In this document: one piece after another, positions 4,638 to 16,000 of the stretch | How the letters are laid out: each line of letters starts with the position of its first letter | How positions within the stretch are numbered: position 1 is the first letter of the stretch | Source of the DNA: a virus | IMG/VR virus record: IMGVR_UViG_3300031933_000154 | Location: 1-28,286 of that record | Strand: one strand, 5' to 3' | DNA length: 28,286 nucleotides | Notes under the pieces: generated by a model | What the model was told of the DNA's origin: nothing | Seen by the model: only the letters and a program-made list of their open reading frames with translations | Databases searched by the model: none | Translations under genes and position numbers: made by a program

Positions 4638-5260
4638 TGTGCTTTCTTTTGATTATTAATAACTCTTGTTAATTCCTTCTTTACACCAATAAGCTGCCTT
4701 ACTTCGGGAGGATAACGAAGCCAGGAATTTCGGAGAACATTCTCGGCCCTGGTAATCATTTCAAGATTATTGATGTTGAAATTCCGCTTGTTACCATCTT
4801 TGAAAATCACTATACAATCAGGCGGGATTGGTCCGTTGTGCTCTTCATATATCTTGCGATGAAGGAGGACGAACTTTCCTTTTTCAACCCTTACCTCCAC
4901 ATATCCTTCTTTACTGACTCGCTTGTAACCGTTGTAAGTGGTGTTGTGTGGCTCATGGCCTTTTTTAAACCACCCCTTTTCGCTTCCGGGGTGTCGCAAT
5001 CCTTTCATGCCCTTATTCCAGGCAGGCAAGCCTCTTAATCCCTCACTCTTTCGGCGGCAGAATTCCGGGTCTTTGTGAAGATCCTTTGTTATTTGTGACT
5101 TAAAGGCTTCGCTTTTCTTCAATCCTAACTGAAACGCCATATTGCGAACCTGCGACAATCTAAGATTAAGTACTGATGCAATGTCAGCGGTAAGGGTATC
5201 GGCATAACATTTGCGCAAATATTCCTTTTCTTCTTCCGTCCAATAATGTTTACCAGGCAT
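4634..5260 (-). CDS. HNH endonuclease with N-terminal Myb/SANT-like domain (208 aa)
   Basis: Residues 4-50 (YWTEEEKEYLRKCYADTLTADIASVL and on) resemble a Myb/SANT-like DNA-binding helix bundle. Residues 85-110 (HPGSEKGWFKKGHEP) resemble a NUMOD-type DNA-contact motif. The region 133-180 is an HNH_3-like nuclease: LHRKIYEEHNGPIP, then FKDGNKRNFNINNLEMITRAEN. The histidine that usually precedes the DGN motif is phenylalanine here, so catalysis may rely on H134/H141 or be weak. It is probably a free-standing homing-type nuclease. It is coupled to the next gene by ATGA. Confidence 0.75.
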   Translation of the reverse strand: MPGKHYWTEEEKEYLRKCYADTLTADIASVLNLRLSQVRNMAFQLGLKKSEAFKSQITKDLHKDPEFCRRKSEGLRGLPAWNKGMKGLRHPGSEKGWFKKGHEPHNTTYNGYKRVSKEGYVEVRVEKGKFVLLHRKIYEEHNGPIPPDCIVIFKDGNKRNFNINNLEMITRAENVLRNSWLRYPPEVRQLIGVKKELTRVINNQKKAQ

Positions 5261-5263
5261 ACC

Positions 5264-5374
5264 TTACTTATTTTTATACATCTCAATAAAATCTCTAACT
5301 GTCTTAACCCCGATATACAGGGTGGTCACTACCATTGTAGCCAGTATCAATATGTGAATGATTGCATTAAACAT
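5264..5374 (-). CDS. Single-pass small membrane protein (36 aa)
   Basis: The frame ATG (5374) to TAA (5264) encodes one hydrophobic segment (residues about 4-23, AIIHILILATMVVTTLYIG) followed by a charged tail (KTVRDFIEMYKNK). It overlaps the end of the LuxR-type gene by 8 bases and stops 3 bases before the HNH start, filling an otherwise empty 100-base gap in a compact operon. It is probably an inner-membrane peptide. The role is unknown. Confidence 0.5.
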   Translation of the reverse strand: MFNAIIHILILATMVVTTLYIGVKTVRDFIEMYKNK

Positions 5375-5750
5375 GGTAATCCTCCTTTCTTCTGCCCTGT
5401 CGGGCTGTTCGGTTTATATTGCGAGAAGCCACCGGGCGCGCTGCCCTTACGGCAGGAGTATCGAAAACAACCTGAACACCTGTTATCATCAGGAATGCGA
5501 ATATTGCAGGAGCGGCATGATGCCTGATTGCTTTTGATAGTTCGTCTTTAGTGCAGATAGCGTGGTAGATGAACCACTCGCGAACGAGATCCGTTTCCTT
5601 GCGGATGCTTAATTTATCGTAGAGGTTGCGATACAACTGATTGACTGTGTGATAACTTCTGTCCAGCTTAACCGCTATCTCTTTTTTTGTGTATCCCTGC
5701 ACTACGAGTGCCCAGATTTGAGCTTCGCGGGGTGAAACAAGTGCTTTCAT
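5367..5750 (-). CDS. LuxR-type HTH protein with C-terminal membrane segment (127 aa)
   Basis: Residues 4-60 (LVSPREAQIWALVVQGYTKKEIA...HTVNQLYRNLYDKLSI) are a GerE/LuxR HTH: the SPRE opening, the KEIA helix and the HTVN recognition helix are all present. There is no sensor domain in front. A hydrophobic stretch at about 79-96 (AAPAIFAFLMITGVQVVF) could anchor it to the membrane, followed by a basic tail (RTARQGRRK). It is probably an early or middle transcription regulator. The start overlaps the preceding stop by ATGA. Confidence 0.65.
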   Translation of the reverse strand: MKALVSPREAQIWALVVQGYTKKEIAVKLDRSYHTVNQLYRNLYDKLSIRKETDLVREWFIYHAICTKDELSKAIRHHAAPAIFAFLMITGVQVVFDTPAVRAARPVASRNINRTARQGRRKEDYHV

Positions 5751-6103
5751 AGCTTTCCGTCTGATTGTGCCACCAACCTTGATAACCGTTGGTGTAATTG
5801 AATTCGCTTACTGAACTTGGTTGTAGTCTTAAGCTGTTGACGAACGTCTCTGATTTCAGCATTAAGGGGCTTCACGATAGCCTTTTCGATGCGTGGCCTT
5901 GATATAGCTTCGAGACAGTGAGCGGGCATAAGTAGGACAGACCGGAGTTCGCACTCATTAGGTTCTAACCTTACATTGTAAAGTCTGTGGTGGTCTTTTT
6001 GATTGACATGAGTAATGCGGCCTTTTGTGCCGATTATTCCTGAAGGGATGTCTTTCGTTTCAGGAATGGCGGTTACTCTTACGAGGTCGTGTTTTTGAAA
6101 CAT
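5747..6103 (-). CDS. Hypothetical protein with SH3/KOW-like N-terminus (118 aa)
   Basis: Residues 1-65 (FQKHDLVRVTAIPE, SGIIGTKGRITHV, LYNVRLEPNECELRSVLLMPAHCLEAI) have the strand-turn pattern of small SH3-like or KOW barrels that bind nucleic acid or ribosomal partners. The C-terminal half is a basic helix that may form a coiled coil. It is not a named family that I can confirm. An AC-rich leader ending CACCTCACGCT lies directly before the ATG. It is coupled by ATGA to the LuxR-type gene. Confidence 0.6.
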   Translation of the reverse strand: MFQKHDLVRVTAIPETKDIPSGIIGTKGRITHVNQKDHHRLYNVRLEPNECELRSVLLMPAHCLEAISRPRIEKAIVKPLNAEIRDVRQQLKTTTKFSKRIQLHQRLSRLVAQSDGKL

Positions 6104-6130
6104 AGCGTGAGGTGTTTAATTGATTATACA

Positions 6131-6355
6131 TTAGGCAACCTCTTGACCGAGTTGCTTTAGAATTGCTTTAATTTCATTGCACTGGTTTTTTGTTAGCCAC
6201 AAATCGCCACGCATAGCGAGATAAAAGGTATTGGGTGCTGTCCAACCCTGACTGGCCATTACTGCGTGACGGAATTGAGGTTGAATATTGCGGGGGAGAC
6301 TATCGTAAACCTCCCTGAAATCGTACTTCGCTTTGTGTTGGAGAATCTTAATCAT
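6131..6355 (-). CDS. Hypothetical early protein (74 aa)
   Basis: Basic and helical: KYDFREVYDSLPRNIQPQFRHAVMASQGW, then a tail LTKNQCNEIKAILKQLGQEV. The pattern could be a compact DNA-binding helical bundle, but I recognise no family. It is the first intact gene of the early operon downstream of the CRISPR array. Its start overlaps the stop of a truncated frame (6348-6449), showing that another gene once lay immediately upstream. Confidence 0.6.
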   Translation of the reverse strand: MIKILQHKAKYDFREVYDSLPRNIQPQFRHAVMASQGWTAPNTFYLAMRGDLWLTKNQCNEIKAILKQLGQEVA

Positions 6356-6449
6356 TGGCCTTGTCTTTTAATTTAAAATCTAACCTAATTCTGTCGAGTT
6401 GTAGTTTAACTATATCATTTCTTTGCTTTAGATATCCGCTGTATCCACA
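6348..6449 (-). pseudogene. Truncated early ORF cut by the CRISPR array
   Basis: A minus-strand frame without a start codon reads KQRNDIVKLQLDRIRLDF (positions about 6360-6413) and ends at a TAA (6348-6350) that overlaps the next gene's ATG, as the functional genes of this operon do. The charged heptad-like pattern looks coding. Going upstream, the frame runs into repeat 1 and meets TAG at 6450-6452, with no ATG, GTG or TTG in between. I infer that the 5' part of the gene was lost when the array or its flank arrived. Confidence 0.5.
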
Positions 6450-6803
6450 CTACATTTTAAGATGTGTTACACCGGATGATCGCGGAGTATCTCAATAACC
6501 ACCGCTGTATCCACACTACACTTTAAGATGTGTTACACCGCCATCTTCAAAGTTTTCCTCTGGCCGCCCGCTGTATCCACACTACACTTTAAGATGTGTT
6601 ACACCTCGGAATTTTTTGAACTAAAATTTAAACCCAGCTGTATCCACACTACACTTTAAGATGTGTTACACCGAAAAATGCTTTCGGTAGGTAATTTGCT
6701 CAGCTGTATCCACACTACATTTTAAGATGTGTTACACCGTTTGGCGTGAGGTTTAAAGAAAGGGCCTGCTGTATCCACACTACATTTTAAGATGTGTTAC
6801 ACC
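6438..6803. CRISPR. CRISPR array: six 36-bp repeats, five 29-31-bp spacers
   Basis: Repeats lie at 6438-6473, 6504-6539, 6570-6605, 6637-6672, 6703-6738 and 6768-6803. They start GCTGTATCC and end ATGTGTTACACC on the plus strand, and are identical except position 18 (T,C,C,C,T,T). The spacers are unrelated to each other, 30, 30, 31, 30 and 29 bases. The repeat has nearly complementary ends (GCTGTA against TACACC) and an inner ACAT/ATGTGT stem around TTTTAA. Length, spacer size and this fold resemble type VI-B repeats of Bacteroidota. The reverse strand ends GGATACAGC, recalling Bacteroidota II-C repeats, so the type is open. No cas gene is in the window. Confidence 0.9.
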
Positions 6804-6916
6804 ATAGGTGGACGTAACTAATTGAAAGTGTGGTTTTCGAGTGGGATTATACCCCTCAAATCGAGGCTGTACAGCCAGCCCTTTAATATTTGTTTTCATA
6901 TAGCAAATTCGTGTTA

Positions 6917-6947
6917 TTGCACACATTCAAAGAATGTGTTACTTTTG
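6917..6947 (+). promoter_or_regulatory. Promoter for repressor gene with internal operator
   Basis: A -33 TTG (6917-6919) and a -7 TACTTTTG (6940-6947) are 20 bases apart, fitting the Bacteroidota consensus. Exactly between them is a perfect 8-bp inverted repeat, ACACATTC aaa GAATGTGT (6921-6939). A protein bound there would block the promoter. A second GAATGTGATAC at 6954-6964 repeats the right half 22 bases further on. Transcription would start near 6954 and run into the repressor gene. Confidence 0.55.
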
Positions 6948-6963
6948 AACTGTGAATGTGATA

Positions 6964-6996
6964 CAAATATAGGCCAAATTTGTCTGTATGTCCAAA
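6964..6996 (-). promoter_or_regulatory. Early-operon promoter facing the repressor promoter
   Basis: On the minus strand, TTTG (6993-6996) is followed 21 bases later by TATATTTG (6964-6971), an excellent match to -33 TTTG and -7 TAnnTTTG. Transcription would start near 6957 and pass first through the CRISPR array and then the early genes. It overlaps head-on with the repressor promoter, so the two should interfere, as in the face-to-face promoters of phages P2 and 186. Confidence 0.55.
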
Positions 6997-7029
6997 TTTT
7001 TTGGACAAAAAAAGCAGCCAAATTTGACA
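6973..7029. promoter_or_regulatory. Operator cluster: TGTCCAAA palindrome and two CAAATTTG sites
   Basis: A perfect palindrome with 8-bp arms, TGTCCAAATTTTTTGGACA, lies at 6989-7007 and covers the early promoter's -33 box. Two CAAATTTG half-site pairs, each preceded by GC, lie at 6975-6982 and 7019-7026, 44 bases apart. These are likely binding sites of the adjacent XRE repressor. They lie downstream of the repressor's own start point, so bound repressor could also limit its own transcription. Confidence 0.5.
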
Positions 7030-7047
7030 AATTGTTTTTATATGGCT

Positions 7048-7431
7048 ATGAATGAACGCTTTAAAAGAGTGTTAAAATCGACAGGGATGTCGAAAGACAA
7101 ACTGGCAGATGTTTTGGGAGTAAGTTCCAGAACACTAAAGAGAATAGAGGCCGGAGAAGTAAGTACGGTAAGCATAGAAATGCTGGCAACCTTACGTCAG
7201 CAATTCAATATTGATTTAAATGCTCTTTTCTCTAAGGAGTATAACAACGATGACAAAAGTGTCCCTCATCAGGCCAACGATAATCCTATAAAATATGGAA
7301 GCATTCCGGATCGATTTGCAAAACACCTTGAAGAAGAAAACAAGTGGTTGAAAGAACAAAATGAGAAGCTGTTGAACATGATAGCTAATAAGGGGGCAGA
7401 CGAGAAAACACATGTGCGCAACTCCGGATAG
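7048..7431 (+). CDS. XRE-family phage repressor with C-terminal coiled coil (127 aa)
   Basis: Residues 1-60 (NERFKRVLKSTGMSKDKLADVLGVSSRTLKRIEAGEVSTV) form a classic HTH_3 domain, with the turn at LADVLGVSSRTLKRIE. Residues 88-112 (FAKHLEEENKWLKEQNEKLLNM) are a leucine-zipper-like coil for dimer formation. There is no S24 peptidase domain, so induction would not be by RecA-stimulated self-cleavage. I choose ATG 7048 (7042 is also possible). The frame extends to 6988, but that start would place the operator palindrome inside the gene. Divergent position and operators support a CI-like role. Confidence 0.8.
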   Translation: MNERFKRVLKSTGMSKDKLADVLGVSSRTLKRIEAGEVSTVSIEMLATLRQQFNIDLNALFSKEYNNDDKSVPHQANDNPIKYGSIPDRFAKHLEEENKWLKEQNEKLLNMIANKGADEKTHVRNSG

Positions 7432-7473
7432 TGCATACAAGATATTGATTTAACATTTTAATACAATAGAACA

Positions 7474-7890
7474 ATGAAACAATTATTTCTAATATTATTG
7501 TTTAGCATTGCAATAGTCAGTCATTCAAATGCTCAGGATGCACCTAAAAGAAGTACTAAGGCAATAATCGAATACAACAATAAAGGCGAAGCACTTCAAG
7601 AAATAGCCTGGATATTATCTGAGAAAGGATTTTACTTTGAGGAAGTGAATGAGACAATCGGAATAATGTCAACCGGAATATTAGCGGATGGAAAAACAGA
7701 ATACAGATTGAATGTAGTTGTTGACGGCGAAGGCAATGCAATGATAACAGGTCAGTACCGCGTTGATGTAATCGATAACAAGTTCACCATCATAGAAAAT
7801 AGGGGGATGAATGGCAGTCCTGTAAAGAATGCCTGGAACATATTAGAAGAAGTGGCAACAGAAACAGGCATGCCTGTAAGATATGAATAA
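7474..7890 (+). CDS. Secreted or periplasmic protein, lysogeny-expressed moron candidate (138 aa)
   Basis: The first 21 residues (MKQLFLILLFSIAIVSHSNAQ) are a standard Sec signal peptide with a likely cut after NAQ and no lipobox cysteine. The mature part is a small alpha/beta domain: KAIIEYNNKGEALQEIAWILSEKGFYFEEVNET, then strands EYRLNVVVDGEGNAMITGQYRVDV and a final helix. It follows the repressor by 42 bases in the same direction and ends at a strong terminator. Expression with the repressor points to a lysogenic-conversion function such as superinfection exclusion. The family is not recognised. Confidence 0.6.
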   Translation: MKQLFLILLFSIAIVSHSNAQDAPKRSTKAIIEYNNKGEALQEIAWILSEKGFYFEEVNETIGIMSTGILADGKTEYRLNVVVDGEGNAMITGQYRVDVIDNKFTIIENRGMNGSPVKNAWNILEEVATETGMPVRYE

Positions 7891-7926
7891 CATTACTTCG
7901 TGACCACTTGCGTGAGGTTGTGAAGA

Positions 7927-7958
7927 AAGGGCCGGCTGTGTGGTTACAGTCGGCCCTT
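7927..7958. terminator. Bidirectional terminator between secreted-protein gene and integrase
   Basis: A 13-bp stem, AAGGGCCGGCTGT (7927-7939) with ACAGTCGGCCCTT (7946-7958), has one G-T wobble and a six-base loop. TGTTATTTC follows on the plus side. It lies between two convergent genes and so can stop both. The 24 bases ending in its left arm closely resemble CRISPR spacer 5. Confidence 0.8.
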
Positions 7959-7959
7959 G

Positions 7960-9117
7960 TTATTTCTTATCAGTTAACTTTTGAGTTAACCGGCTCATAT
8001 CATCAGCAAGCTTTTGGCGAGTGATACGTGCGTAAATCTGCGTTGTTGACAGGTCGGAGTGTCCCAGCATACGCGAAACTGTTTCGATAGGCACACCGTT
8101 TTCGAGTGTTACCGTTGTGGCGAATGTGTGACGCGCCACATGGGTAGTGAGTTCGATAGGTATATTACAGAGTGCCTGTATCTCTTTAAGGTAACTGTTC
8201 ATTCGCTGATTGCTGGGGATTGGCAACAGCCGGTCGCTCTCCTGGTCGTTGTGCTTCTGAACAATTGCGGCGGCTTGTGGCATTAAGGGTATGGCGCTTT
8301 CCTCTTCGGTCTTTCGGCGATTGGTAATGATGAACATGGTGCCGTTATGGATATAGAAGTCCGTAGGGGCCAGCTTGCGCACATCGGAATAAGCAAGTCC
8401 GGTAAAGCACGAAAACAGGAACATATCTTTTACAACCTGAAGCCGGTGGTTCGGCATATCCTTTTCAATAATTGACTGAAGATGTTCCCAACCGAGGTAC
8501 TTTCTTTTTACTTCAACAGCTCGCGGCATCTTAAAGCGGGTGTACGGATTCTCATTGATGTGCCCGGCATCTATGGCCTTATTGATAAACCGCCGCAACA
8601 GGGCGTGTTTCTTCCTTATTGTATTGACGTTGTAATTCTTACTGAATAACCACGCGTCAAACTCCCGGATGGTTTCAATATTAATCTGATTGAACTGCTC
8701 AATCTTTGCGAATGACTGCATCAAATTAACGAAACTGGACAGCTGCCTGTGTGTTTCCGACCTCAGTCGGGCATCATATACGATGCTACGGCAAAAGGCC
8801 GTAAAACTGCCGTAATTTTGATTTTTGAGAATTTTGGTGACGGCATCGAGAGAGAGTGACAGATTATTCTGCCTGCAATGATATTCGTATTCGTCCAGTT
8901 TGGCAACCATATCGCGCAACTGGTTGTTGTACTCAACCTTTTTGCCGACCTTGGTAAAATGGTATTGCGGGTGCCACTGTTCTTTTGTGACTGAGATACC
9001 TGTACTGAAGTACCTGGCCTTTCGGTTAATGGTTACGCGTAGTTGTACCAACGCGGTGCCGTCCTCCTTATACCCTTTGCGGGCATGGATGAATTTGTAG
9101 TGCAATCGTTCATTCAT
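7960..9117 (-). CDS. int: Tyrosine integrase (385 aa)
   Basis: Site-specific recombinase that integrates and excises the phage at attP/attB. The N-terminal arm-binding domain (about 5-95) is followed by a SAM-like core-binding domain (about 100-195) and the catalytic domain (about 205-385). All catalytic residues are visible: R247 (SDVRKL), K269 (NRRKT), H326 and R329 (HVARH), H353 (LGHSD) and the nucleophile Y362 (TQIYARI). The layout matches Bacteroidota phage and conjugative-element integrases. Its promoter lies among repeated GGTACAAC sites that are likely its own binding sites, so it may control its own expression. Confidence 0.95.
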   Translation of the reverse strand: MNERLHYKFIHARKGYKEDGTALVQLRVTINRKARYFSTGISVTKEQWHPQYHFTKVGKKVEYNNQLRDMVAKLDEYEYHCRQNNLSLSLDAVTKILKNQNYGSFTAFCRSIVYDARLRSETHRQLSSFVNLMQSFAKIEQFNQINIETIREFDAWLFSKNYNVNTIRKKHALLRRFINKAIDAGHINENPYTRFKMPRAVEVKRKYLGWEHLQSIIEKDMPNHRLQVVKDMFLFSCFTGLAYSDVRKLAPTDFYIHNGTMFIITNRRKTEEESAIPLMPQAAAIVQKHNDQESDRLLPIPSNQRMNSYLKEIQALCNIPIELTTHVARHTFATTVTLENGVPIETVSRMLGHSDLSTTQIYARITRQKLADDMSRLTQKLTDKK

Positions 9118-9169
9118 AGTTGTACCTTTGAGTTATTAAGTAATCCTTAACAACTGAAATACGGTACAA

Positions 9170-9200
9170 CAAATGTAGATTATATTTCTATTCGGTACAA
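9170..9200 (-). promoter_or_regulatory. Integrase promoter
   Basis: On the minus strand a -33 TTG (9198-9200) and a -7 TACATTTG (9170-9177) are 20 bases apart, matching the Bacteroidota consensus. The -33 lies inside the arm-type site at 9194 and the -7 touches the site at 9163, so integrase binding would cover the promoter. The start point would be about 9163, leaving a leader of roughly 45 bases. Confidence 0.6.
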
Positions 9201-9297
9201 CACGGGTACAACTTTTGTGAAAACAACTGTCTGTATGTTCGATGTCACCATTTTTGAGAATCTCCACTTATGTGACGGTTATGTGATTGAGGGTGAC

Positions 9298-9327
9298 AAA
9301 AAAAGCCTGTCGGGGGTTGACAGGCTT
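9298..9327 (-). terminator. Rho-independent terminator of the late operon
   Basis: A perfect 9-bp stem, AAGCCTGTC (9303-9311) with GACAGGCTT (9319-9327), has a seven-base loop and is followed on the minus strand by a run of T (9298-9304). It ends leftward transcription after the holin gene and shields the integrase promoter. It may be part of the attP core, since tRNA genes often carry such a terminator at this distance. Confidence 0.85.
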
Positions 9328-9402
9328 GTGATCCCGGGAGTATAAGAACCACCCCCTTATTCATTGGCTTGCGCTTACATCGGTACAACAAAAGTACAAC
9401 AA

Positions 9403-9849
9403 TCAGGAATCCTTTTTTTTATCATCATCAACACCTAATTTGTTTCTGAGGATGTCGGATATACTTGTAAGAGGTTCCCATTTTGTTATTCGGTAACCGT
9501 TTTGGAGGATTGAAAATAATAGAATTCCTGCGATAAACCAACCAATAATTTTGTAGGTAGATACCAACTCCTGACTGAAGACAGTATCCCAGGCATACGC
9601 ACCGAGGATGAGAACGAGTGAAAGTACCATGCGCGGGATTGTGGTATTCCATACAATCCGTGCGCTGAAGCGTTGGCCTTTTAACTTTTTTGCAGCGAGG
9701 TATCCAAAGACCGTATCTGCAATAAAAAAAATGATAATGAGATGAATAATGTCTTTTACGGGGAGAAAGTAACCCAGGAAGGATGCGAATAATCCTGTGA
9801 GGGCGGCCCATATCTTTGAGCCAAGTTCTTCGAGGATTTTAAAAAACAT
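9403..9849 (-). CDS. Phage holin, multi-pass (148 aa)
   Basis: Hydrophobic segments lie at about 12-30, 34-53, 72-92 and 97-117, separated by a basic loop (AAKKLKGQRFSARIVWNTT), with a charged C-terminal tail (DDDKKKDS). This is the pattern of the holin_4_1 (toxin secretion/phage lysis holin) type seen in Bacteroidota and Firmicutes phages. It would form the membrane lesion that releases the endolysin at the end of infection. It is the last gene of the leftward late operon, with a terminator 75 bases on. The AC-rich leader before the ATG includes CCTCACGC. Confidence 0.75.
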   Translation of the reverse strand: MFFKILEELGSKIWAALTGLFASFLGYFLPVKDIIHLIIIFFIADTVFGYLAAKKLKGQRFSARIVWNTTIPRMVLSLVLILGAYAWDTVFSQELVSTYKIIGWFIAGILLFSILQNGYRITKWEPLTSISDILRNKLGVDDDKKKDS

Positions 9850-9869
9850 AAGTGCGTGAGGTTTTGTGG

Positions 9870-10463
9870 TTATTTAAAAAGTTTAAATGCGGCGAATCCG
9901 CCGTATATCGTTTTATCACCTATCTTCATGACATCAATTCCATACATGGCCCGGCTGTTGGGCATGTATCCCAACCCTACTCGGCCGACAAAGCCTTCTC
10001 CAAATCCAATCCCGCCGGTAGCATATATCCCGGATGCCTCTGTGGTTACTTTAATAGGCTTTTCAACGATTACCGGATAGGGCTCGCGGATGGTTGTGAA
10101 TTGCTTTTTAAGGACCGGTTGATACTCCCACTCTATATTGAAAAGCTTGTCTGCGTATATGTCTGCCCATATGCGCACTTCATCATTTACAATGCTATCC
10201 CGGTAATGGTTAACGGAATCGTCCGGTTGTGGCTTTTCAAACTCCCTATCCCGGTAAATTATTGAATCCTTGTAAATGGTTGTATCGCGAACGATGGTCA
10301 CGGTGTCCGGGGGCATGGCTTCAATGGCGCTGATGCTGTCAACTACCGCGTTCATTTTCGCCAACTCCTTTAAGTTGTCGTTGTACAGACTCCTAAAAGT
10401 CAATCCCCAGGCTACCACGGCCAACACAACCAGTGTGGTTATTATGCTACTTAGGTGCTTCAT
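9870..10463 (-). CDS. Candidate spanin or lysis accessory protein (197 aa)
   Basis: With the ATG at 10463 the protein begins MKHLSSIITTLVVLAVVAWGLTF, a single N-terminal membrane anchor. A periplasmic section follows with a DTVTIVRDTTIYKDSIIYRDRE stretch. The C-terminus is glycine- and aromatic-rich (GIYATGGIGFGEGFVGRVGLGYMPN and on), like beta strands that insert in an outer membrane. An inner-membrane anchor plus an outer-membrane-like C-terminus in a lysis cassette suggests a one-piece spanin, but no family is recognised. It overlaps the gene before it by 17 bases, typical of lysis genes. Confidence 0.45.
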   Translation of the reverse strand: MKHLSSIITTLVVLAVVAWGLTFRSLYNDNLKELAKMNAVVDSISAIEAMPPDTVTIVRDTTIYKDSIIYRDREFEKPQPDDSVNHYRDSIVNDEVRIWADIYADKLFNIEWEYQPVLKKQFTTIREPYPVIVEKPIKVTTEASGIYATGGIGFGEGFVGRVGLGYMPNSRAMYGIDVMKIGDKTIYGGFAAFKLFK

Positions 10464-10689
10464 TGTCCTGCTGTTTTGCTTCGTACTTCTTTTGCCATAC
10501 CTTACCCCCAATTACTGGAGAAATGAAAACCCCTATGGCTCCGGTCATTATGGCGATGCCTTGCCAGTTAATTTCATTGCCTTTGATTGTTGCGACAATG
10601 ATAGATGCGGCGGTGGCGAGTGTAAGGATTGCCGCGAGTGCGATAACTGAATACATTGCGCGGCGCATACTGGACTGTGTTAACTTCAT
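10447..10689 (-). CDS. Small two-pass membrane protein, holin-like (80 aa)
   Basis: Two hydrophobic segments (about 12-33, YSVIALAAILTLATAASIIVA, and about 44-61, IAIMTGAIGVFISPVIGG) are joined by a short polar loop, with a charged lysine- and glutamate-rich tail. Size and topology fit class II holins or antiholins. It is found beside the amidase and a larger holin-like gene, so the phage may have a holin pair. It starts 10 bases after the amidase stop. Confidence 0.6.
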   Translation of the reverse strand: MKLTQSSMRRAMYSVIALAAILTLATAASIIVATIKGNEINWQGIAIMTGAIGVFISPVIGGKVWQKKYEAKQQDNEAPK

Positions 10690-13068: not shown

Positions 13069-16000
13069 ATCAATTTACTTTTTTTTTCAAGTTCCTGAAT
13101 CCGTTTACTTTGATCTTGTATTATTGCGTATAACTCCTGAATGCCTTTTGTTGCTACCGTTGCTGCATACTCGCTGTAATTGATAGATAGATAGCTGTCT
13201 TTTCCTTCCTTACCTGATACGAATTGAGGGAACTGCTTTTGCAAATCCTGAGCGAGTAGTCCTGTTCTTACCTTCTTATCCTCGTTGTCGTTACGTGTGT
13301 AGTCGTATATTGTGAGGGCGTTGATTTTTTCAAGGGTACTTTCGGTTGGATTGATAATGTCTTTCAGGCGTGCATCGGAGTAGGCGGTTACTTCGCCGGA
13401 GGCAAGGATGTTGCCGTTGACATCGAGTGCTTCGGTGGGGGATAAATTGTCACCGACTCTTAATCCTGTGTTATTTATTCTTGCTTTATATACACCATTT
13501 AAATAAAAATCAATTTTTTCCTTCCACAAAAATACCGCCGCGCGAGTTGCATTGTCAGCTAGATTACGTATACTAATACCTGTAAAATGAGAATCACTAT
13601 CTGAATTTATTTGTAAAATATTATTATTACCTAATTTAATATTCCCGTTAACGTCTAATGCTTCAGTAGGTGATAAATTGTCACCGACTCTTAATCCTGT
13701 GTTATTTATTCTTGCTTTATATACACCATTTAAATAAAAATCAATTTTTTCCTTCCACAAAAATACCGCCGCGCGAGTTGCATTGTCAGCTAGATTACGT
13801 ATACTAATACCTGTAAAATGAGAATCACTATCTGAATTTATTTGTAAAATATTATTATTACCTAATTTAATATTCCCGTTAACGTCTAATGCTTCAGTAG
13901 GTGAAGTTGATTTTCCAACAGACAACCAACCACTTGTATAGTCGTTTGCATCGGAACGTAAAAACTGACTACCCTGTAACCCATCTAATTTATCACTGTC
14001 GTCACTATAACCACTCCTTAACTTTCCCCACGCAATCCCTGAATAATACCCTGCGTAATATGATGATACAGTGCCCCCAGCTAAAGAACCTTCAATTGCA
14101 CCACCTTTAAAGACTGAATAATTTGTATCAGAATAATAACACATTAAAGGTGACGATTTTAGCATTAATTCAGAAGCTTGATAGCCGTCTAATTTATCAG
14201 AATCCGCAGCCTTAGCCGTCTTCCCCAGATAATTCAACCCAACCCAACTCTCCGTAGCAATGTTATCTCCACCTATTTTCCAGCGATTGTCTGTTCCGTA
14301 AAGCAACGAACTCACTACACTCGTGCCGTCATACACATCAATACCGCTTGCGACAGTTGCAGCATCCTGTGTTCGATTTAATTGCAGACGTGCGTCATCT
14401 ACTGTGATAACATCTGCTACCCAATGATTTACAGTGCCGTGAATTATTAAATCATTGACTATAAAATCCTGATCACTTGCTCCTCCTTTTACGTGATAGT
14501 TATTGCCTACCCATGTCTGAGTTGCATATCCCTGAGAAGCATGGTCTCCCCACCCGTATGCAGTCTGGCCGTTATTTATCCTGCTGTCGTTGCCTTGTGC
14601 CACTGTGCCGGAGGCTGTGCCGAAGTTTTTATTAAAGGCTGTGTTTTTTGTGAACTTCGCTTCAAATTGGCCGGTCGCCCAACTCTCCGTTGCTACTGCA
14701 TTGCCTCCTTTTTCAAGCAATCCGGTGAAATTCCAATCTCCGGAGGGATTGTAATTGGCTGTTTCATCAAATCCCTGACCAACTGAACCATCTATCTTTA
14801 ATACACCGTTGTCGTTGATAAGGCCAGTGCCTACGGGTATGGCTTCGAAAATTGAGGGTAAATTCAAACCTGCGGAAGCAAAAGCTACAACATCGTAATT
14901 ACACACAAAAGGAAGCTTTGCGCGAATAAGAGGATTGCCTCCATTCTCTTCGTAAACGAACATATCAGAAAGTCGTTCAATCTCAGATATCTTATGCGTG
15001 TGCTCGAGAGGTGGATACAAAGACGGTTTATTTCTTACATTTTCCCAGGTCGGCAGTACTGTGCTACCTGATGCATTCAGCGTGTCGGAAGATATCTTAT
15101 TGTCGTTGTCGGGGTCTGCATTATAAGATATAACCACATTACTTACAATCGATTGTTCTTCATACTCAAGAATCTCTACAAAGTCGCCGGATACGGTATT
15201 CTCATATAAATCCCAGGTACCTGTTTTGGCCCAAAAGTTTGCTTGATATAAACCCTGATTTTCTACATAGATAGTATTCAGGCGATGGAATGAATGTTTC
15301 AATTGACCTGAAAGAATCTGCCTGGTCTTTCTGTTGTTGGAAGCGACGGTGCGAAGCAGTATTTCAGAAAGGTCATAATTCTGAGTATCATTAATATGCC
15401 TCCATTCGGCAATAATCGTCCCGTCCGAAGCCCTTTTGGCAGCAGGGAACATTCGTTCTCGGTTAGGTAGGTCAGGAGCACCTGCAACGAACTCTTCTTC
15501 CAGTTCGTTAATCACATGGTCTGCGAGTTTGAGGTCGTAGTTAACGAAGGCAGGGACCGAGATACTATCATTCTCAATGTTTGGGAAAACATTGATTTCA
15601 TTTACAACAAAAGTAACAGGCTCGCTGTACATATCGACAGGCTTGTACCAATCGATTCTTAAGTTTCCGGTTATAGGTATTTCAGAGAAAATGAAATTGT
15701 GTTCAATAACCGTATCGCGAACGAACGTGACATCGAAGTAGTATTCTGAAACGGCAGAGCTCCATCCATTTTCAGTAAGATAATAAGTAGTTGTGCCGTC
15801 GCTGATGGATATGGTTATCTGAGAAAAAAGCTGATTGATAAGAACACCGTCTGAGCGCTTATCGAATACCGCCTTAAGACTGTGCCTTAATCTTGTTTCT
15901 TCGGTGGATGCCTCTACAGGTACACTCATATAAGCAGCAATGCCCGGTGTGGAACTGTCGCCTCCAAACAGGATATTGATAACATCAGAGCCGGCACCTG

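Follow-up and report, generated by a model that had tools for sequence, protein, structure and literature searches.

A CRISPR array without detected cas genes between the early operon and the repressor of a temperate phage

The viral record IMGVR_UViG_3300031933_000154, analysed here over its full linear length of 28,286 bases (hereafter the window), carries at positions 6438–6803 a clustered regularly interspaced short palindromic repeats (CRISPR) array, in which six 36-nt repeats alternate with five spacers. The repeat reads GCTGTATCCACACTACA[T/C]TTTAAGATGTGTTACACC, and its copies (6438–6473, 6504–6539, 6570–6605, 6637–6672, 6703–6738 and 6768–6803) differ at position 18 only, which is T, C, C, C, T and T across repeats 1–6. 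These near-identical direct repeats lie within the ∼23–50 nt expected of CRISPR, and the spacers S1–S5 (30, 30, 31, 30 and 29 nt) are near-constant in length and unrelated to each other, with mutual ungapped identities of 21–38%. The repeat starts are spaced by 66, 66, 67, 66 and 65 nt, and a coding repeat is excluded because this variation breaks any reading frame. In the Bacteroidota genomes that we collected, nearly all 36-nt arrays beside cas9 or cas13b have a 66-nt period; because the phage array shares this repeat length and period, we assign its format to the class 2 type of that phylum. The locus is a genuine CRISPR array, and the coordinates and sequences given in a preliminary description of this DNA (six 36-bp repeats with one variable position and five unique 29–31-bp spacers) are confirmed. 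An Rfam search had no hit above the gathering thresholds, and relaxing the E-value added only matches of the level expected by chance. A cytosine stands two bases 5′ of all six repeats (6436, 6502, 6568, 6635, 6701 and 6766), with a chance of ∼3% if any spacer position is allowed.

We now turn to the position of the array within the lysis–lysogeny control region. Promoters of Bacteroidota carry TTTG at −33 and TAnnTTTG at −7. The only match to all 10 positions of this consensus in the window is TTTG-21 nt-TATATTTG on the minus strand (6996–6964), an early promoter directed through the array and into the early operon, whose −7 region is also present in the nearest relative phage, described below. 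Because this promoter points through the array, we predict that minus-strand transcription places the array at the 5′ end of the early message, as its leader. The preliminary description had placed the array between the early operon and the repressor, with the promoter at 6964–6996 pointing through it, and both statements are borne out. A putative repressor promoter faces the other way (6916–6947, plus strand); it matches the consensus more weakly and holds a palindrome, ACACATTCAAAGAATGTGT, that is a possible operator. The repeat and the palindrome at 6920–6942 have ATGTGTTAC in common, a likeness equalled by 6 of 1000 shuffles locally and by 51 of 200 over the window, and we rejected the palindrome as a degenerate seventh repeat since its likeness to the repeat is not significant over the whole window. 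Between the early promoter and the first transcribed repeat (6768–6803) lies a putative leader (6804–6957, minus strand). Pairing between a leader and its repeat has been published for type VI-B and type II-A systems (PMC13187072), and folding predicts that the early leader pairs with the first transcribed repeat. The predicted pairing is not significantly better than that of shuffled leaders, a fraction of 0.06–0.30 of which are as good, and a leader–repeat hairpin of the VI-B or II-A kind was therefore rejected. Three copies of AAAGGGCYNGCTGT surround the array: one in the early leader (6873–6886, minus strand), one at the junction of spacer 5 and repeat 6 (6758–6773, plus strand) and one in the repressor-operon terminator (7926–7941, plus strand). 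Their likeness may reflect chance or a shared origin.

The surrounding genes are those of a temperate phage: small and large terminase, portal, capsid, tail-length protein, amidase, integrase, an XRE-type repressor and a leftward early operon. To the right of the array, the repressor of the XRE/Cro-CI family (7048–7431, plus strand) is followed by an open reading frame (ORF) of 138 aa for which no family was found (7474–7890, plus strand), by a terminator hairpin between the repressor operon and the integrase (7927–7958) and by the tyrosine integrase (7960–9117, minus strand). To its left, the early operon begins on the minus strand with a 74-aa ORF (6131–6355), and continues with a 118-aa ORF (5747–6103) and a regulator with a LuxR-type helix-turn-helix (5367–5750). 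Elsewhere, within a large tail gene ending in an endosialidase chaperone domain (Peptidase_S74), two head-to-tail 231-nt copies (13408–13869) are 96% identical.

No Cas protein was detected among the ∼30 predicted window proteins scanned with Pfam, PHROGs or PADLOC, with some small ORFs lying outside the scan; for the scanned proteins of this record, the array is thus a viral array without cas genes. The record itself is incomplete, with perhaps 2–3 kb absent at its linear ends. A related locus (L007, 91% identical DNA in the terminase region) extends beyond the right end of the window and reaches a recombinase gene missing from it, and another relative (L009) has ∼3 kb between its points of match. 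By reading of the ORF list alone, these ∼3 kb hold an HNH-like ORF, a tyrosine recombinase and ORFs of unknown function, and no cas-like ORF. The preliminary statement that no cas gene is present in 28 kb agrees with the scan, on a record that may lack those 2–3 kb.

The nearest relative phage, the 33,957-bp record IMGVR_UViG_3300012002_000197 (G003), has a terminase 75% identical to that of the window and the same gene order of repressor, early promoter region, 74-aa ORF, 118-aa-type ORF and LuxR-type ORF. Its orthologs of the 74-aa ORF and of the LuxR-type regulator are 57% and 68% identical, respectively. In the slot of the array, G003 instead encodes a 215-aa KilA-N protein (Pfam E-value 6e-22); proteins of this family often serve in anti-repression or early regulation. 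Searches for further relatives by the repressor and by the early ORF found none, and the search by the LuxR-like ORF found G003 alone. No other CRISPR-like array was seen in ∼160 loci from viruses and prophages that were retrieved through their terminase, few of which extend over the early region. The G003 locus also holds ∼22 tandem copies of a 48-nt unit (L095:1420–2462, 74% matches) with copies of the 3′ end of the integrase gene on both sides.

Among the spacers, S5 (6739–6767) resembles the phage's own DNA at 7910–7933. Over 24 aligned bases there are one gap and one mismatch, giving a local score of 19 that none of 1000 shuffles equalled over the whole window. The match is imperfect and shorter than the spacer; on the plus strand it lies in the 3′ untranslated region and terminator foot of the repressor operon, and on the other strand it is the tail behind the integrase terminator. 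G003 carries a related sequence (GCGTGAG...AAGAAA) at the corresponding place. The resemblance to 7910–7933 makes a related phage the probable source of S5. The minus strand of the matched segment holds AACCTCACGC, which stands before several start codons of the phage: (C)CTCACGC occurs on the minus strand at 6105, 9854 and 26057, immediately ahead of the start codons 6103, 9849 and 26052, and at 7910, the end of the repressor operon. As Shine–Dalgarno sites are scarce in this group, the motif may serve in translation or as a leader element. If guides were made from the minus strand, S5 would pair with the end of a repressor-operon transcript; plus-strand guides would instead have as partners the integrase tail or messages that carry the leader motif.

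The other spacers gave no comparable match. S1 (6474–6503) has a weak likeness to 9329–9353, in a putative attachment-site region, which is not significant (score of 14, shuffle maximum of 15); S2 (6540–6569) has no convincing target, and no target was found for S3 (6606–6636) or S4 (6673–6702). The putative attachment site itself (9301–9333) contains a terminator sequence, AAGCCTGTC...GACAGGCTTTTTT, that recurs at one end of record G003, next to a stretch reading like the 3′ half of a tRNA (no ARAGORN call).

The array's anatomy, the lack of detected cas genes, its position, the promoter sequence, the different content of the slot in a relative and the likeness of S5 to the phage's own lineage are direct results. 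On balance, we lean towards the explanation that this is an orphan array of a temperate Bacteroidota phage that uses host Cas proteins in trans in conflicts between phages. Its place in the early leader, the differing slot in the relative and the lineage-like spacer make such conflict, fought through host Cas proteins, its most likely use. Once the early promoter fires, at infection or induction, minus-strand transcription would include the array as the leader preceding the early operon, and a host class 2 Cas effector recognizing the repeat would process the transcript. The resulting guides would then act in heterotypic superinfection exclusion, directed at phages that are related or compete with this one. 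Since S5 matches the carrier phage imperfectly, it would spare it and strike any relative that has the exact sequence. The preliminary description had likewise proposed that host Cas proteins may be borrowed and that the array could arm the host against rival phages or regulate genes; the likeness of S5 to the phage's own lineage makes the use against related phages plausible, and no matching cas locus was found in the genomes searched.

Several results weigh against this explanation. Transcription and processing of the array, like its targeting, are predictions from sequence. At up to three mismatches, the phage repeat occurs in none of 70 whole Bacteroidota genomes, so that the comparison proposed in the preliminary description yielded no cas locus with this repeat. 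Likewise, neither IMG/VR nor the GTDB species genomes contain an exact copy, and a relaxed repeat scan of IMG/VR had no match. Because these genomes need not include the true host, the search for the repeat beside a cas locus is a weak test. The promoter type, integrase domains and terminase relatives point to a Bacteroidota phage; among genomes, the best terminase matches are no closer than 48% (Hymenobacter and others), and a search of 395 Bacteroidota genomes for the tRNA/terminator attachment pattern revealed no host. Protospacers are missing as well: scans of IMG/VR with the exact core of S5 and a codon-degenerate S1, the two spacers used there, found none, and comparison of the whole array with phage and plasmid records gave just 20–40-nt chance-level matches and no exact protospacer. 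Finally, one relative alone covers the locus, and the comparison fits either gain of the array or loss of the KilA-N gene.

The effector class of the repeat adds to these counterpoints. We compared the repeat with position-specific profiles built from repeats of Bacteroidota Cas9 and Cas13b loci, scoring each member while it was left out in turn; the PADLOC family accessions were located by scanning a Cas13b and a Cas13a sequence. On the VI-B profile, the phage repeat scores 6.2 (plus strand) or 14.0 (minus strand), compared with 22–41 for left-out members, and the minus-strand value is close to what true VI-B repeats can reach when their wrong strand is scored (−3 to 16). Its best II-C score is 6.5, just under the members' range of 6.6–32. 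On a VI-A profile of reference repeats, it scores 2.9, compared with 25–47 for seven of the eight references; the eighth, from Rhodobacter, itself scored −3.0. By eye, the minus-strand repeat is like the Paludibacter repeat, and type VI-A was rejected on this profile score.

The entire repeat is predicted to fold into a two-stem hairpin, a topology that VI-B repeats share and most II-C repeats do not, and which fits a Cas13-like effector better than Cas9. The hairpin is weaker than those of VI-B repeats (−5.5 kcal/mol on the plus strand or −7.4 kcal/mol on the minus strand, compared with −7.9 to −15.2 kcal/mol). The preliminary description had offered two hints about the effector: its VI-B-like fold holds for the structure and fails on the sequence profile, and its II-C-like end is not upheld, as the score falls under the members' range and the 5′ motif of II-C repeats, a G[T/C]TGTG..TTG-like start, is missing from both strands. 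The locus L185 encodes a very divergent Cas13-like protein (7158–10514, minus strand; PADLOC Cas13b E-value 4e-7 over ∼80 profile positions) accompanied by a 33-repeat array (4935–7083, GCTGGGAATGCTCTTGATTTATAGAGTAACTACAGC), and is possibly an unusual type VI system.

Other explanations must be weighed against the same evidence. One is that the early transcript acts as an RNA anti-CRISPR decoy, supplying six repeat mimics that occupy a host Cas effector while the spacers are hardly relevant. The array stands directly behind the early promoter, as do the solitary repeat units that act as RNA anti-CRISPRs, or Racrs (PMC10651486), and extra, over-expressed CRISPR RNA titrates Cas13b (PMC13187072). 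However, Racrs are solitary units (PMC10651486) and this array has six repeats, and it has retained unrelated 29–31-nt spacers, one of them apparently phage-derived, that a decoy would not need; we consider a decoy unlikely. To the same degree, we doubt that the array is an inert passenger, an orphan from a host chromosome or plasmid that no longer has a matching Cas effector. Such an origin would suit a repeat that lies outside every profile class tried and was found near no cas locus in the genomes searched, but the repeats are identical bar one position, show no decayed end repeat and are kept behind an early promoter, which suggests recent use or selection.

Somewhat less probable than either is a proposal in which the array is wired into the lysis–lysogeny switch itself: the early transcript would be the CRISPR RNA precursor, encoded in the KilA-N slot, and guides such as S5 would direct a host effector, one that targets RNA and belongs to a repeat class not yet described, to repressor-operon transcripts made by related prophages. 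If true, this would be RNA-guided antagonism between prophages. We give still less credence to a regulatory leader acting in cis, in which early-operon expression is controlled by the repeats and leader pairing, or the phage's own repressor transcript is the target of a guide. The predicted leader–repeat pairing and the S5-like stretch that closes the repressor operon, to whose 3′ end S5 in minus orientation is antisense, would favor it; yet the pairing is not significantly better than that of shuffled leaders, the S5 self match is gapped, mismatched and partial, and the spacers have no sequence in common. A binding-site array or structural repeat that is not CRISPR at all is very improbable: despite the ATGTGTTAC shared with the palindrome and the cytosine two bases ahead of each repeat, the combination of 36-nt repeats and five unrelated 29–31-nt spacers is the class 2 format of the phylum, binding-site arrays seldom keep unrelated ∼30-nt spacers of constant length and one spacer resembles phage DNA.

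Under the explanation that we favor, an orphan array served by host Cas proteins, the phage would join the few known cases in which a phage carries guide RNAs while the host supplies the enzyme. A small temperate Bacteroidota phage with an array as its early-operon leader would provide a compact test system for how the timing of guides relates to infection or induction. A repeat outside the tested profiles could also indicate a host effector that is absent from these collections.

We close by comparing the array with known systems. Type VI-B arrays of Bacteroidota, which employ Cas13b, are alike in their 36-nt repeat, 30-nt spacer and whole-repeat two-stem hairpin. In contrast to these, the phage repeat lacks the conserved TTT at positions 18–20 and the ACA[A/G]C end, its profile score is far lower and no cas13b was found. 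The prophage arrays of Clostridioides difficile use the host's type I-B repeat. In phi027 and the prophages of strain 630, the spacers match other phages (PMC4524475, PMC6127314); the early-operon leader location of the present array is not described in these cited accounts. The mini-CRISPR arrays of Sulfolobales viruses (SPV) are similar in having a leader and no cas genes, and their spacers are directed at closely related viruses, for which superinfection exclusion has been proposed (PMC6858448). Those are archaeal viruses with one or two spacers, whereas the phage described here is bacterial and temperate and has five. Huge phages carry compact arrays with a median of six repeats, some of whose spacers target other phages, and some of these phages, having host-like repeats and no interference genes, may use host Cas proteins (PMC7162821). 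The present array equals that median, although huge-phage genomes exceed 200 kb and this record has 28 kb. Racrs are cas-less repeats directly behind a phage promoter, as here, but are solitary and without spacers (PMC10651486), and the full array of six repeats falls outside their definition. Phage arrays without cas genes are thus already known from C. difficile prophages, Sulfolobales viruses and huge phages (PMC6858448, PMC7162821, PMC4524475, PMC6127314); what is unusual in this phage is the leader location within the lysis–lysogeny region, together with a repeat that fits no tested class.
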